Below, one piece after another: positions 4,076-36,441 of a DNA stretch of 38,269 nucleotides. The notes beneath the pieces are model-generated. The model made no database searches. It was not told the origin of the DNA and saw nothing but the letters and a program-made list of their open reading frames with translations. The first letter of the stretch is position 1, and every line of letters starts with the position of its first letter. The position numbers and the translations under genes were made by a program. Source of the stretch: Bacillus sp. (in: firmicutes) (GTDB lineage: Bacteria; Bacillota; Bacilli; Bacillales; Bacillaceae); contig JAPSLL010000013.1 of NCBI GenBank assembly GCA_031180805.1, positions 64,246-102,514 on the forward strand, written 5' to 3'.

Positions 4076-5365
4076 ATGTCTAAATTGCAAAAGATTTTTG
4101 GAGATGTCCATGTAAGTAAAGATTTATTATTGTTATTAGCCATAGGTGGTTTATATTCCTTAAGCATCGCTTTATCAAATACCTTCGTTAATGTGTATTT
4201 ATGGAAACAATCAGGTGAATTTCTTGACTTGGGAATTTACAATCTTTCCATAGTAGTAATGCAGCCATTAACATTTATTTTTGCAGGAAGATTAGCTAAA
4301 AAAATAGACCGTGTCATTATTTTGCGTTTAGGAGTAATCTTTTTAGCAATATTTTTTCTAACTGTATTAGTAATAGGTGATTTAGCAGCTAAGCTATTAG
4401 TTGTAATTGGTGGTACGCTAGGAATTGGCTATGGTTTCTATTGGTTAGCCTTTAATGTGCTTACATTTGAAATTACTGAGCCTGAAACAAGGGATTTTTT
4501 TAATGGTTTCTTAGGGATTATGAATTCCACTGCTGGTATGGTTGGCCCAATAATCGCGGGATATGTAATTTCTCGATTGAAAAACTTCACAGGGTACACT
4601 ACCATTTTCACAATTTCCCTAATTCTATTTTCGGGTGCAGTAGTACTAAGCTTTTTTTTAACAAGGAGACCAGCAGAAGGAAGTTATTTGCTCAAACGAA
4701 TAATACAAGAACGCAAACACAATCAAAATTGGAGAAGAATTACAAATGCCCATTTTTTTCAAGGGTTACGTGAGGGTACATTTGCTTTTGTTATTGGTGT
4801 ATTTGTTTTTATAACAACAGGCAGTGAATTAGCTTTAGGAAAATTTGGATTAATTAATTCAGCAGTTGCGTTTTTAGCCTATTTTTTAGCAGCAAGAATT
4901 ATAAAAAAGTCAAAAAGGAAAATTTATATTTTATTGGGAGGCATCCTATTATATTTATCGATTTTCATCATCTTGTTCGATTTGACATATCAAAAGTTAA
5001 TTATATATGCAGTGTTAATCGCGATTGGTTATCCAATGCTTTTAGTTCCATACTCTTCTATAACGTATGATGTAATAGGACGTGCCTGGAATATTGCAAA
5101 AGCAAGAATTGAGTATATCGTTGTAAAAGAAATTTTTTTAAATGCAGGTAGGATTGGCTCAATAGTGTGCTTTATTATTGCAGTTAGATTTTTTAATGAA
5201 AAGCATAGTATTCCTATATTATTAGCTATTATTGGGATGGGCCATTTACTCATTTTCTTTTTTGTAAGAAAGATACAGCTTAAGGAAAGCAAAGAAACTA
5301 TTGAAGAAACAGGACAAAAGCCAGTAAGAAAAGCAAATTTGGTTGATGGTGATAGCGGTGCATAA
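4076..5365 (+). CDS. yqgE: MFS transporter (YqgE-like)
   Basis: A 429-residue major facilitator superfamily permease with about twelve hydrophobic segments. A central cytoplasmic loop (around residues 200-225, rich in Arg, Lys and Gln) divides the two six-helix halves. Its place between sodA and the pst operon is that of B. subtilis yqgE. The frame extends to a TTG at 4058, but the site AAGGGGAG at 4061-4068 lies inside that extension and is seven bases before the ATG at 4076, which is therefore the start. The substrate is unknown. A very long hairpin terminator follows. Confidence 0.85.
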   Translation: MSKLQKIFGDVHVSKDLLLLLAIGGLYSLSIALSNTFVNVYLWKQSGEFLDLGIYNLSIVVMQPLTFIFAGRLAKKIDRVIILRLGVIFLAIFFLTVLVIGDLAAKLLVVIGGTLGIGYGFYWLAFNVLTFEITEPETRDFFNGFLGIMNSTAGMVGPIIAGYVISRLKNFTGYTTIFTISLILFSGAVVLSFFLTRRPAEGSYLLKRIIQERKHNQNWRRITNAHFFQGLREGTFAFVIGVFVFITTGSELALGKFGLINSAVAFLAYFLAARIIKKSKRKIYILLGGILLYLSIFIILFDLTYQKLIIYAVLIAIGYPMLLVPYSSITYDVIGRAWNIAKARIEYIVVKEIFLNAGRIGSIVCFIIAVRFFNEKHSIPILLAIIGMGHLLIFFFVRKIQLKESKETIEETGQKPVRKANLVDGDSGA

Positions 5366-10553: not shown

Positions 10554-11084
10554 TTATCTTGTAATTGCTTCTGCAAGTTGATGGAAGTCCATTCCTTTTT
10601 TGACTTGGAATGTTCCTAATTGAACTTTTTGGTGATAATTATTTTTTATAAGGTATTGATCAAAATTGAATGAATCTTCGATTATTCCGTTTTGTTCAAG
10701 TAAATCAGAAACAGTACTTGTTGTCATACCTGCTGTAATTGTTAAGTTGTAGGTAATTGGTTCTTCTTTCTTTTCTTCAGCTGGTGCTTCTTTAGCTGGT
10801 GTTTCTGTTGTTGTTTCTTCCTGTGCTTTATCTTCTTTTGTTTCTTTAGCTGTCTCTGTTTTTTGTTCAGAAGAATTTTTTGCTGCTAATAATTCTTCAT
10901 ATTCTTCAGCCTCAACAGCCATTCTCCCATTTTCGGCTAAGTATTTTTCGACATTTTTTTCGGTAATCTGATTTTTATCATCAGCAGCTGCTGATTTATT
11001 ATCTGTTAGAAGGTAAGTGCCTCCTAATAGAGTTGTTGCCACAATCATTCCTGCTGCAAACGCCTGATAACTGGTTTTACTCAT
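10554..11084 (-). CDS. yqzC: Membrane-anchored protein with MltG-type LysM-like domain (YqzC-like)
   Basis: A 176-residue protein with an N-terminal membrane anchor or signal (about 7-27), a long low-complexity Glu/Lys/Thr/Ala spacer (about 70-110), and a C-terminal domain from YNLTITAGMTTSTVSDLL to the end. That domain resembles the small LysM-like part of the endolytic transglycosylase MltG/YceG (the region ending in a 'G T F x V K x G M' pattern). The catalytic YceG domain is missing, so no lytic activity is expected; binding to peptidoglycan outside the cell is inferred. Its ATG overlaps the stop of the upstream gene by four bases. The yqzC name is positional. Confidence 0.6.
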   Translation of the reverse strand: MSKTSYQAFAAGMIVATTLLGGTYLLTDNKSAAADDKNQITEKNVEKYLAENGRMAVEAEEYEELLAAKNSSEQKTETAKETKEDKAQEETTTETPAKEAPAEEKKEEPITYNLTITAGMTTSTVSDLLEQNGIIEDSFNFDQYLIKNNYHQKVQLGTFQVKKGMDFHQLAEAITR

Positions 11085-33974: not shown

Positions 33975-34112
33975 TTATTTTGCAGCATGTCCATTTTGAA
34001 GAAAAAGGAGAATTTCATCAAATGACAATCCAATTTGTTTTGCCTCTTTTATTAATTCTACCCATTCAATGTCTAAATCTATTAATTGAATATTCTTCTC
34101 TGGATTATCCAT
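33975..34112 (-). CDS. sinI: SinI-like antirepressor
   Basis: A 45-residue protein too short for usual gene calling. The central LDIEWVELIKEAKQIGLSFDEILLFL matches the SinI/SinR dimerisation helices (D-x-EWVEL-x-x-EA in B. subtilis SinI). Such proteins bind SinR and release it from DNA, starting biofilm matrix expression. AAGGTC and AGGAGG precede the ATG on the minus strand. It lies 33 bases after sinR in the same direction, the reverse of the sinI-sinR order in B. subtilis, so the two are probably co-transcribed from the sinR promoter. Confidence 0.85.
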   Translation of the reverse strand: MDNPEKNIQLIDLDIEWVELIKEAKQIGLSFDEILLFLQNGHAAK

Positions 34113-34145: not shown

Positions 34146-34487
34146 TTATTTTTTCTCTTCCTGCCATTTTTTAAATTTTAAATAGTCACGGAACTCTTCG
34201 AAATCTTTTTTGCTCATTCCTTCTTCAATAGCTTTGTTTAGTAACCTGCTCCATTCATCATCTAAAATAAACTCTTTCGATTGACTTCCTGACGTTGAGC
34301 CTAATAAATCTTCAACATCTATTTCAAGTGTTGAAGCAATCTTCTTTAAAAATTGAAGCGAGGGATTTTTTTGTACATCACGTTCAATGTAGCTTAAGTA
34401 TGATTTTGAAACTCCTGCTAACTCAGCTAACTCACTTATAGAATATCCCTTCTCAAGTCTCAACTCCTTTAATCGTTCTCCAACCAT
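34146..34487 (-). CDS. sinR: Biofilm master regulator SinR
   Basis: A 113-residue repressor. Residues 1-65 are an XRE helix-turn-helix (GERLKELRLEKGYSISELAE, recognition region VSKSYLSYIERDVQKNPS) closely like B. subtilis SinR. Residues 75-108 (LDDEWSRLLNKAIEEGMSKKDFEEFRDYLKFKKW) form the SinI-binding dimerisation domain. It could in principle be the paralogue SlrR, but the adjacent sinI favours SinR. AAGGAGAAC precedes the ATG. It is transcribed away from epsA, and the gap between carries SinR boxes. Confidence 0.93.
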   Translation of the reverse strand: MVGERLKELRLEKGYSISELAELAGVSKSYLSYIERDVQKNPSLQFLKKIASTLEIDVEDLLGSTSGSQSKEFILDDEWSRLLNKAIEEGMSKKDFEEFRDYLKFKKWQEEKK

Positions 34488-34535
34488 ATACGGTTCTCCT
34501 TATATTCTTTTACCAATTTTATACTAACTAAATTC

Positions 34536-34564
34536 ATTATATGAAACAAAATGTTCTTAATAAA
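34536..34564 (-). promoter_or_regulatory. sinR promoter with a SinR box
   Basis: On the minus strand TTTATT (34564-34559), a 17-bp spacer and TATAAT (34541-34536). AAGAACA, which matches the known AAGAACR form of the SinR site, fills the start of the spacer (34558-34552). Autoregulation is inferred. Confidence 0.5.
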
Positions 34565-34616
34565 ATAACATAATTGTATGATATAAAGAGTAAGTAGGAG
34601 AGAATAGAAGTAATTT

Positions 34617-34623
34617 GTTCTTT
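34617..34623 (+). promoter_or_regulatory. SinR box in the middle of the sinR-epsA gap
   Basis: GTTCTTT, a perfect match to the SinR consensus GTTCTYT, 126 bp upstream of the epsA -35. Confidence 0.45.
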
Positions 34624-34748
34624 TTAACGAAAAAATGGTAAATTTTCAGAGTTTTTAAAAATAGGTAATATAGCTTATATTAATTTTTGTGCATTCAGAG
34701 AAGGATAAAATGGTGATCAATAAAAATAATGAATTATTAGAAAAAATA

Positions 34749-34793
34749 TTGACTTGTTCTTTATAGTGAACTATTCTAAATTATAGAGAGAAC
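34749..34793 (+). promoter_or_regulatory. epsA promoter with SinR operators
   Basis: TTGACT (34749-34754), a 17-bp spacer and TATTCT (34772-34777). The spacer holds GTTCTTT (34756-34762) and, in inverted orientation, GTGAAC (34766-34771). A second consensus site, AGAGAAC (GTTCTCT on the minus strand, 34787-34793), lies around +5. SinR bound here would exclude RNA polymerase. Confidence 0.75.
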
Positions 34794-34849
34794 GAACTCG
34801 GTTAAAGTGTTTGAGTATTTTAATGATAAAAAGTAGGTGGATAAATTAT

Positions 34850-35590
34850 ATGTCTAGTTTTCCAGATTTAGAAGATAAACATAAAAATGAACATAAGAAA
34901 ATAAAGGAAATCGATATTAGAGAAATATTCATTGTATTAAAACGATATATATGGATCATAATTATGATTACTTTTATAACAACTTCTTTAGGAACCTATT
35001 ACACGATTTCAACCTTCACCCCTTTGTATCAATCTACGAACAGAATTATTTTTGGATCAGCTGATGTCAATTTAATTACAACATTAAAGGTAATTATCAA
35101 GGATACTACAGTACTAGATAAAGTTATTAATAAACTAGATTTACCTTATACATCAGAAATATTAGCAGGAAAAATTGATGTAGGGACTATAGATAATTCA
35201 TCAGTTGTAACGATTACTATTACAGATAATGATCCGGAGCAAGCTGCCCTGATAGCAAATGTTGTAGCGGAAACTTATAAAGAAGAAATCCCAAAAATTA
35301 TGGGATTTAATGATGTAAAACCTTTATCAGAAGCTAAGGTAAATCATACTCCAATAAATCAGAGCCAAAACCGAAATATCATTATATCGATTTTAGGTGG
35401 TATCGTTATTGGGGTAGGGTTAGCTTTCCTATTGGAATCACTAAACAATAGTATAAGAAAAGAAGATGAGGTTGAAGAGTTACTAGGTATTCCAGTGTTA
35501 GGTTCTGTCTCAACAATGAAAAAGAAAAATATGCAAAATAAAAGAAAAAACGACAAACTTATGTATAGAGGTGAGACTCTTGGTTCTTAG
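34850..35590 (+). CDS. epsA: Polysaccharide chain-length / kinase-modulator protein EpsA
   Basis: A 246-residue Wzz-type membrane protein that partners the tyrosine kinase EpsB in exopolysaccharide synthesis. Membrane segments lie near residues 32-54 and 183-203, flanking an extracytoplasmic region. The second is followed by LLESLNNSIRKEDEVEELLGIPVLGSV, the classic cytoplasmic juxtamembrane stretch that contacts the kinase. GTAGGTGGAT precedes ATG 34850; the frame also opens at 34811 without a site. The end overlaps epsB by 11 bases. Directly divergent from sinR. Confidence 0.9.
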   Translation: MSSFPDLEDKHKNEHKKIKEIDIREIFIVLKRYIWIIIMITFITTSLGTYYTISTFTPLYQSTNRIIFGSADVNLITTLKVIIKDTTVLDKVINKLDLPYTSEILAGKIDVGTIDNSSVVTITITDNDPEQAALIANVVAETYKEEIPKIMGFNDVKPLSEAKVNHTPINQSQNRNIIISILGGIVIGVGLAFLLESLNNSIRKEDEVEELLGIPVLGSVSTMKKKNMQNKRKNDKLMYRGETLGS

Positions 35591-36248
35591 GATAAGCAGG
35601 AATAAATCAGTAAGGGAAAATTCAAAACGTCATTTTGTCTCATATTCTAACCCAAGCTCACAAATTGCAGAACAGTTTCGAACGATACGAACAAATATAC
35701 AATTTTCCTCTATTAATAAAAAACATAAAACATTAATCATTACATCTCCATCAGAAGGAGAGGGAAAAACTACATCCGCAATTAATTTGGCCATTTCACT
35801 TTCGCAACAAGGGGATAAGGTCTTGTTAGTTGATGCTAACTTGCGAAGACCGACAGTACATTCTACTTTTAATCTAAAAGATGCATTAGGTCTATCAGAA
35901 GTTTTAATTGGAAAGGCAACGATAGAAGATGCAATAGTTCAAACTCAAATTGGTCAACTTGAAGTTTTACCTAGTGGTATGACTCCTCCTAATCCAGCGG
36001 AACTAATCGGTTCTAAAGCAATGAGTCAACTTATTAAGGAAATAACGGATGAATATGATGTAATTCTATTTGATTCCCCTCCAGTACTTGAAACAACAGA
36101 TACTAAATTACTTGCTGGTCAGTGTGATGGAGTGATTTTAGTATTAACGAGTGGTAAAACAGATAGAGAAAAAGCAATTGAGGCTAACCGATTATTAAAT
36201 TTAGTAAGAGCAAAGGTATTAGGTGTTATATTAAATGAACGAAATTAA
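35580..36248 (+). CDS. epsB: Bacterial tyrosine kinase EpsB (CpsD/BY-kinase family)
   Basis: Cytoplasmic BY-kinase of 222 residues that works with EpsA. It has Walker A SPSEGEGKTT (near residue 55), Walker A' VLLVDANLRRP, and Walker B VILFDSPPVLETTD; the N-terminal AEQFRTIRTNIQF is the typical oligomerisation motif. Translation starts at TTG 35580, with AGAGGTGA six bases upstream, inside epsA. Oddly the C-terminus stops at VLGVILNERN and has no tyrosine cluster, the usual autophosphorylation target. It precedes the EAR RNA element. Confidence 0.92.
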   Translation: MVLRISRNKSVRENSKRHFVSYSNPSSQIAEQFRTIRTNIQFSSINKKHKTLIITSPSEGEGKTTSAINLAISLSQQGDKVLLVDANLRRPTVHSTFNLKDALGLSEVLIGKATIEDAIVQTQIGQLEVLPSGMTPPNPAELIGSKAMSQLIKEITDEYDVILFDSPPVLETTDTKLLAGQCDGVILVLTSGKTDREKAIEANRLLNLVRAKVLGVILNERN

Positions 36249-36304
36249 TCGTTTTGCTTTTTTATTATAACGTTTTGTTCTTTATTACGCACAAATAAAA
36301 TAGT

Positions 36305-36441
36305 GTTTTTATAGGTGATATCTCCTAACCTTTATAAATGGAGGTACTCGGCCATGCTGTGGGTTGAAGAAACCTTAGACACGAGTTGTCAAGAGTGTGG
36401 TGTGAGGGCGGGTTAAATGCCCATTTATTTAAAATTCCCGC
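36305..36441 (+). ncRNA. EAR / epsC-type RNA antitermination element
   Basis: The 390-nt gap between epsB and epsC carries a structured GC-richer segment: TCTCC/GGAGG helix (36321-36343), CTCGGCCATGC, GTGGGTTGAAGAAACC (a GGTT/AACC helix), GTTGTC and GTGTGAGGGCGGG. GCGGG at 36408-36412 pairs with CCCGC at 36437-36441. Position (epsB-epsC) and the conserved-looking loop sequences match the eps-associated RNA that allows processive antitermination in Bacillales polysaccharide operons. Recognised from memory and context, without a covariance model. Confidence 0.7.

Follow-up and report, generated by a model that had tools for sequence, protein, structure and literature searches.

The 362-bp gap between epsA and the repressor gene divergent from it corresponds, in Metabacillus, to the known slrR-epsA control region and is a variant of a known arrangement. 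We assign a probability of roughly 0.75 to the following reading: the gap is a region of the slrR-epsA type; a SinR-family repressor acts on a dyad in the epsA promoter and on an array at the divergent promoter; the divergent gene codes for a paralogue with tyrosine at residue 33 (Tyr33) and not for SinR; and SinI-like peptides relieve the repression. Two features deserve follow-up, namely the less well-known paralogue and the clean rule of spacing. The genes, the sites, their spacing, their conservation and their clustering in the eps island were established directly.

Locus and gene order

The window, i.e., the whole stretch of 38,269 nucleotides that was analysed, comes from a genome of 4.58 Mb. 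The closest named relatives of the window's repressor protein belong to Bacillus sp. SA1-12 and to Metabacillus species. The gene order is comG-type genes, an aroK-like gene, a DUF3889 gene, a SinI-like ORF, the SinR-like gene on the minus strand, the 362-bp gap, epsA, epsB and the epsC RNA (EAR element); the comG, aroK and eps names are in part our presumption. Coordinates of the features in and around the gap are listed in Table 1.

Table 1. Features of the repressor-epsA region, in coordinates of the window
Feature	Coordinates	Strand	Evidence or remark
SinI-like ORF, 45 aa from ATG, GGAGG ahead	33975..34112	-	PF08671 SinI, E 1.5e-9, 37.9 bits vs cut-off 31.4
SinR-like repressor gene, 113 aa, Tyr33 paralogue in slrR position (sinR in the earlier note)	34146..34487	-	HTH_3, E 3.7e-17
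E1, imperfect inverted repeat over the -10, ATTCATTATATGAAAC; GTTCATTATAAGGAAC in some relatives	34532..34547		alignment
Repressor-gene promoter TTTATT-17-TATAAT	34536..34564	-	read from sequence; same layout at slrR
E2, GTTCTTAATAAAATAAC, the AAGAACA box of the earlier note, adjoining and over the -35	34553..34569		10/17 columns invariant
E3, GTTCTTTTTAACGAAA, box with degenerate second half	34617..34632		10/16 columns invariant
E4, conserved AT-rich block (AGAGTTTTTAAAAATAGG...TATATT), near-fixed distance from E3	34643..34685		alignment
epsA promoter TTGACT-17-TATTCT	34749..34777	+	21/29 columns invariant; in promoter-scan list
E5, predicted eps operator, dyad of 16 bp (GTTCTTTATAGTGAAC) that takes up the spacer between -35 and -10	34756..34771		13/16 columns invariant
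AGAGAAC near +5, probably no selected site	34787..34793	-	0/7 columns invariant
Place of leader dyad (GTTCTTAATTAAGAAA type), absent or degenerate in window	34815..34831	+	carried by 14/17 relatives
epsA (Wzz chain-length determinant)	34850..35590	+	PF02706, E 1.1e-7
epsB (tyrosine autokinase)	35571..36248	+	TIGR01007, 200 bits vs cut-off 108
Half-decayed dyad GTTCTTTATTACGCAC, 20 bp before EAR RNA	36277..36292		window retains left half only
epsC RNA (EAR element)	36313..36423	+	RF01735, 107.5 bits vs gathering score 42

Identity of the divergent repressor gene

The window repressor aligned with SinR (PDB 1b0n_A) over residues 1-111 with E 1.3e-30 and shares with SinR of the SinR/SinI structures (PDB 1b0n, 3zkc) an HTH and a Sin domain over the whole length; its Sin domain scored E 1.3e-6 and 28.5 bits, below the Pfam SinI cut-off of 31.4. 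Residue 33 of the recognition helix, described in PMC3163267 as a notable Ser/Lys difference between SinR and SlrR, is tyrosine here. Moreover, SinR of B. subtilis has serine at this residue, sinI upstream and yqhG as a neighbour, whereas the window gene adjoins eps and has its SinI-like ORF behind it. Another contig (G000:C89) codes for a second SinR-like protein with Ser33, a SinI-like ORF upstream, which we take to be sinI, and a neighbour that is presumably yqhG. This closer orthologue does not agree with the identification of the divergent gene as SinR in the earlier note. In our reading, the SinR proper of this genome is the Ser33 protein, encoded outside the window and probably at the other end of this eps island.

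The window gene resembles slrR in its position divergent from epsA and in the layout of its promoter. On the other hand, SlrR has Lys33 and carries a further Sin-like domain in the same chain, while the window has Tyr33, a protein of 113 aa and a separate SinI-like ORF. The NCBIfam SlrR model (NF046032) gave the window repressor 92.3 bits against a cut-off of 250, which none of the 21 genus members reached. The SinI-like ORF, a Sin domain without HTH, starts 33 bp past the repressor stop codon in the same frame and aligns to positions 113-148 of the SlrR model. In 4 of 21 Metabacillus-type genomes, this one included, the Tyr33 gene and the SinI-like ORF together match the whole model with one stop between them. 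Among 80 genomes searched, the model was matched above the cut-off without a stop in 43 of the 44 genomes of the B. subtilis genus and in none of the other 36. Searching with a profile for SinI-like ORFs beside SinR-like genes, we found one downstream of the Tyr33 gene at 14 of the 17 aligned loci and, within 450 bp downstream, in 35 of the 91 Tyr33 rows.

Residue 33 was Tyr in 91, Ser in 29, Lys in 33, Gln in 5 and Glu in 1 of 159 SinR-like rows; the Tyr33 rows were collected with the window protein as the query and their share is therefore biased. Twenty-nine of the Lys33 rows were SlrR above 90 bits, and the Gln and Glu rows were weak relatives. A tree was built for 117 rows, with 16 Paenibacillaceae Tyr33 and 15 Lys33 rows thinned out and rows below 90 bits dropped. 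It fits each residue-33 group on one side of a branch, at a support of only 70 for Tyr33 and 92 for Ser33. With an SlrR branch of 3.26 changes per column, the tree is undecided as to whether SlrR is nearer to Tyr33 or to Ser33, and it cannot root SlrR. A literature search over titles and beginnings of abstracts returned no description of a Tyr33 paralogue or of this locus, which is no proof that they are unpublished.

Significance and conservation of the operator sequences

Every element named in the earlier note (boxes, hexamers and 17-bp spacers) is present at its position in the sequence. In the window as a whole, exact GTTCTYT boxes were not enriched (16 observed compared to 14.4 expected). 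The gap holds 3 of these 16, with 0.14 expected at the window rate (Poisson P ≈ 4e-4). When up to 3 mismatches were allowed, the ideal dyad GTTCTTTATAAAGAAC occurred 3 times in the window compared to 0.66 expected, a count reached by 2 of 100 shuffles, and two of the three sites fall inside the gap. The promoter hexamers alone had no significance (5 in the scan compared to 12.6 expected in shuffles), and the minus-strand TTTATT-17-TATAAT was not among the matches of the promoter scan of the window. The case for operators is carried by the dyad and its conservation.

Gaps between a divergent Tyr33 gene and epsA were found at 26 distinct loci. We aligned 17 of them (346-565 bp); the other 9 gaps were 665-3657 bp long, 5 of them above 1.2 kb, and 8 of these 9 also contain a GTTC-8-GAAC dyad. 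In the 17 aligned gaps, the mean identity of the eps dyad and the three repressor-side elements was 0.945-0.971, compared to 0.64 in non-element columns; 10/15, 10/17 and 10/16 columns of the three repressor-side elements were invariant. This alignment across relatives, which the earlier note had called for, rules out a chance origin of the boxes in E1, E2, E3 and E5. The proposal that both divergent promoters contain operator sequences of the SinR family was borne out as well: they are present and conserved in the 17 gaps. Because of these conserved sequences, it is likely that eps and the repressor gene are regulated together, as suggested earlier; the part of that suggestion that made SinR the product of the controlling gene was not supported, since the gene codes for a paralogue.

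The epsA promoter and its operator

The epsA promoter consists of TTGACT (34749-34754), the 17-bp spacer TGTTCTTTATAGTGAAC and TATTCT (34772-34777). A GTTC-8-GAAC dyad was found between TTGAC(A/T) and the epsA -10 in all 17 aligned gaps. It reads GTTCTTTATAGTGAAC in 12 rows, differs by 1-2 changes in 2, and has the perfect form GTTCTTTATAAAGAAC in L021, L024 and L048. E5 can be read as an inverted pair of GTTCTTT and GTTCACT, the second box having two mismatches, and so as an inverted pair of the SinR-operator kind. Its right half retains T (GTGAAC or ATGAAC) in the 14 core rows, i.e., the asymmetry is itself conserved: GTTCTTT faces GTTCACT or GTTCATT in 14 of 14 core Metabacillus genomes. 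E5 has the marks of a genuine operator.

The epsA leader contains a further dyad in 14 of 17 gaps; it is missing in the window (L001), L012 and L018. The AGAGAAC near +5, previously taken for a SinR box, is unconserved across the 17 gaps, and we accept chance as its origin.

The repressor-gene promoter and the fixed array

On the minus strand, the repressor-gene promoter consists of TTTATT (34564-34559), a 17-bp spacer starting with AAGAACA, and TATAAT (34541-34536). The sequence TTCATTATA, which contains this -10, was invariant in 17 of 17 aligned gaps. E3 contains GTTCTTT at 34617-34623. The spacing was 20 bp from E1 to E2 and 64 bp from E2 to E3, each constant in all 17 gaps. The 53 bp between E2 and E3 had a mean pairwise identity of 0.60 and no change in length (n=17). 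We also observed that E4 matches no SinR box; RemA is one candidate binder.

The array recalls the upstream regions of slrR, where TTCATTATA was followed by the next box at 20 bp and by the dyad GTTCTYTAAARAGAAC 62 bp further in 29 of 29 cases. The two kinds of locus share the SinR-family gene divergent from epsA, the TATAAT inside TTCATTATA, the box 20 bp away, a further SinR-type site beyond it and inverted repeats of the SinR type. The divergence of a SinR-family gene from epsA is not new, being already present at slrR-epsA in the B. subtilis-type genome that was examined. The far site of slrR is a full dyad at 62 bp, while the far site here is half decayed and lies at 64 bp. The slrR-epsA rows shown have no dyad in the eps core promoter, whereas the Metabacillus eps operator lies inside it. 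Residue 33 is Lys in SlrR and Tyr here, and the SinI-like part, fused in 43 of 44 genomes of the B. subtilis genus, is a separate ORF here. Also, the one B. subtilis-type genome checked has no dyad before the EAR RNA.

Distribution of the operators and of the Tyr33 genes

Upstream of the 50 Bacillaceae Tyr33 genes outside the aligned 17, a pair of boxes 62-65 bp apart occurred at 17 (0 in shuffles) and was absent at 33. It was found at 1 of 24 Paenibacillaceae-type Tyr33 genes and at none of the 28 Ser33 sinR genes; only 10 of the 29 slrR regions were counted by this pattern, since its stricter form excludes GTTCTCT. Many of the 17 extra genes had no epsA found adjoining. Because the pair occurs at such Tyr33 genes and is absent at Ser33 genes, the array belongs to the Tyr33 gene and not to adjacency to eps. 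A dyad in the gene's own upstream region was present at 26 of the 50 Bacillaceae and 23 of the 24 Paenibacillaceae-type Tyr33 genes.

At 23 tandem loci epsA lies downstream of the Tyr33 gene in the same orientation, and dyads lie upstream of the Tyr33 gene and directly before epsA in 23 of 23. Of these loci, 21 are titled Paenibacillus, one is from Bacillus sp. FJAT-26390 and one from Ammoniphilus; the count excludes L032, L033 and L111, which had weak same-strand epsA matches. The Paenibacillaceae tandem loci share with the window the same paralogue beside epsA and the dyads before both genes; they differ in that the repressor gene is upstream on the epsA strand and not divergent. A Ser33 protein was also encoded in 10 of 10 Paenibacillaceae tandem-locus genomes checked.

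Dyads with up to 2 mismatches were concentrated in the segment from sinR to epsA. In this genome 6 of 13 were found there compared to 0.04 expected, a figure that depends on our inference that contigs C44 (at its end) and C89 (at its start) belong to one island. In four relatives the counts were 6/19, 6/17, 8/12 and 6/12, with 0.10-0.14 expected. Genome-wide, dyads were modestly above the reversed-pattern control (13 compared to 8 here, 12-19 compared to 5-12 in relatives); the control is known as genome totals (5-12, five genomes). The B. subtilis-type genome G031 had 11 dyad sites compared to 3 in the control, with one in the slrR-epsA gap and one 2.2 kb from sinR. A GTTC-8-GAAT dyad between epsB and the EAR RNA was present in 11 of 11 relatives and might act as a roadblock or as an internal operator. 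This dyad and the leader dyad are two sites common in relatives that have decayed in the window.

Several further observations concern the surroundings of sinR on contig C89 (locus L171). Dyads at 686-701, 4209-4224 and 4282-4297 flank an apparent lasso-peptide cluster between the eps cluster and sinR; we take its genes to be a short precursor ORF, asparagine-synthase-like and HPr-kinase-like genes and an ABC transporter. Two more dyads (10570-10585 and 10701-10716) are found in the interval from sinR to a signal-peptidase-like gene. A masked run of N (about 1913-2098) falls inside a sulfotransferase/asparagine-synthase-like ORF. The TasA/camelysin family members of this genome sit on yet another contig (C42).

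Proposed mechanism and alternative explanations

In B. subtilis, SinR represses slrR and eps (PMC10134886, PMC5733473), prefers inverted repeats of the GTTCTYT type, shared by the window, with a Kd of 0.3 uM (PMC3163267), and has been interpreted as an anti-activator in competition with RemA (PMC8481266). In the reading that we prefer, a SinR-family dimer would bind the 16-bp dyad in the epsA promoter spacer and occlude RNA polymerase. Members of the same repressor family would also occupy the three rigidly spaced elements at the divergent repressor-gene promoter, and the SinI-like peptide encoded behind the paralogue, as well as SinI at SinR, would relieve the repression. We infer which protein binds, the repression by occlusion and the antagonism by SinI-like peptides. 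Residue 33 is not the same in SinR and the Tyr33 protein, and the dyad at eps is asymmetric, so that there is room for a mixed SinR/Tyr33 dimer; heterodimers were raised for SinR and SlrR in PMC3163267.

The earlier note proposed that SinR is the divergent gene product and bridges both promoters in a loop. SinR is tetrameric and looping at SinR promoters has been proposed (PMC3163267 and PMC8481266). However, the window gene is a paralogue. In addition, the eps dyad and the nearest repressor-side box (E3) were 139-295 bp apart in the 17 genomes, and these distances showed no periodicity of 10.5 bp (Rayleigh P 0.17), while the spacings on the repressor side were the same in 17 of 17. We therefore rejected the inter-promoter loop as a conserved feature and regard this explanation as very improbable. 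A better loop candidate is the repressor-side array with its constant 64-bp spacing. Somewhat less remote, though still improbable, is the binding of the repressor-side elements by another factor, such as RemA or AbrB. RemA binds AT-rich periodic sites overlapping SinR sites at B. subtilis eps and slrR (PMC8481266, PMC5519356), and E4 fits no SinR box; yet E1-E3 have GTTC/GAAC cores, and E3 aligns in position with the full slrR dyad.

Two other alternatives, each possible though doubtful in our estimate, concern the role of the Tyr33 protein. It may itself be the repressor of eps and of its own gene, with the Ser33 SinR minor here. Such a role would suit a gene linked to eps in several layouts (divergent at 26 loci of varying gap length, tandem at 23) that often has dyads upstream of itself (26/50 and 23/24, as above). 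It would also suit a protein that keeps the Glu and Tyr of the SinR tetramer contacts, with Phe and Lys in place of Trp104 and Arg105 (residues as given in PMC3163267). Nevertheless, dyads also lie beside sinR and other island genes, the Ser33 SinR accompanied the paralogue in all 10 of the Paenibacillaceae genomes checked, and no genome was found that needs Tyr33 alone. Alternatively, the Tyr33 protein may act like SlrR, binding and redirecting SinR without repressing eps by itself. The slrR position, the slrR-type promoter and the match of gene plus SinI-like ORF, separated by a single stop, to the SlrR model over its entire length (4/21 genomes) point in this direction. Against it stand Tyr33 instead of Lys33, 92 bits compared to the SlrR cut-off of 250, and tetramer contacts better kept than those reportedly lost in SlrR (PMC3163267); the tree, with its long SlrR branch, leaves kinship with SlrR undecided.

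Implications for the SinR/SlrR switch

In the biofilm switch of B. subtilis, SinR has SlrR as its double-negative partner. As a tentative suggestion, which we would rate below an even chance, an eps-dedicated Tyr33 repressor with a SinI-like partner may be old in the switch of Bacillaceae and Paenibacillaceae, SlrR may be its fused Lys33 descendant, and the asymmetric Metabacillus operator may suit a SinR/Tyr33 dimer. If the two-gene Tyr33 locus is widespread, the history of the SinR/SlrR switch becomes directly testable. The exact 64-bp spacing with diverged intervening sequence allows short-range looping by a tetramer of the SinR family to be tested sharply, and the upstream operator and the core-promoter operator provide two forms of eps repression to compare.
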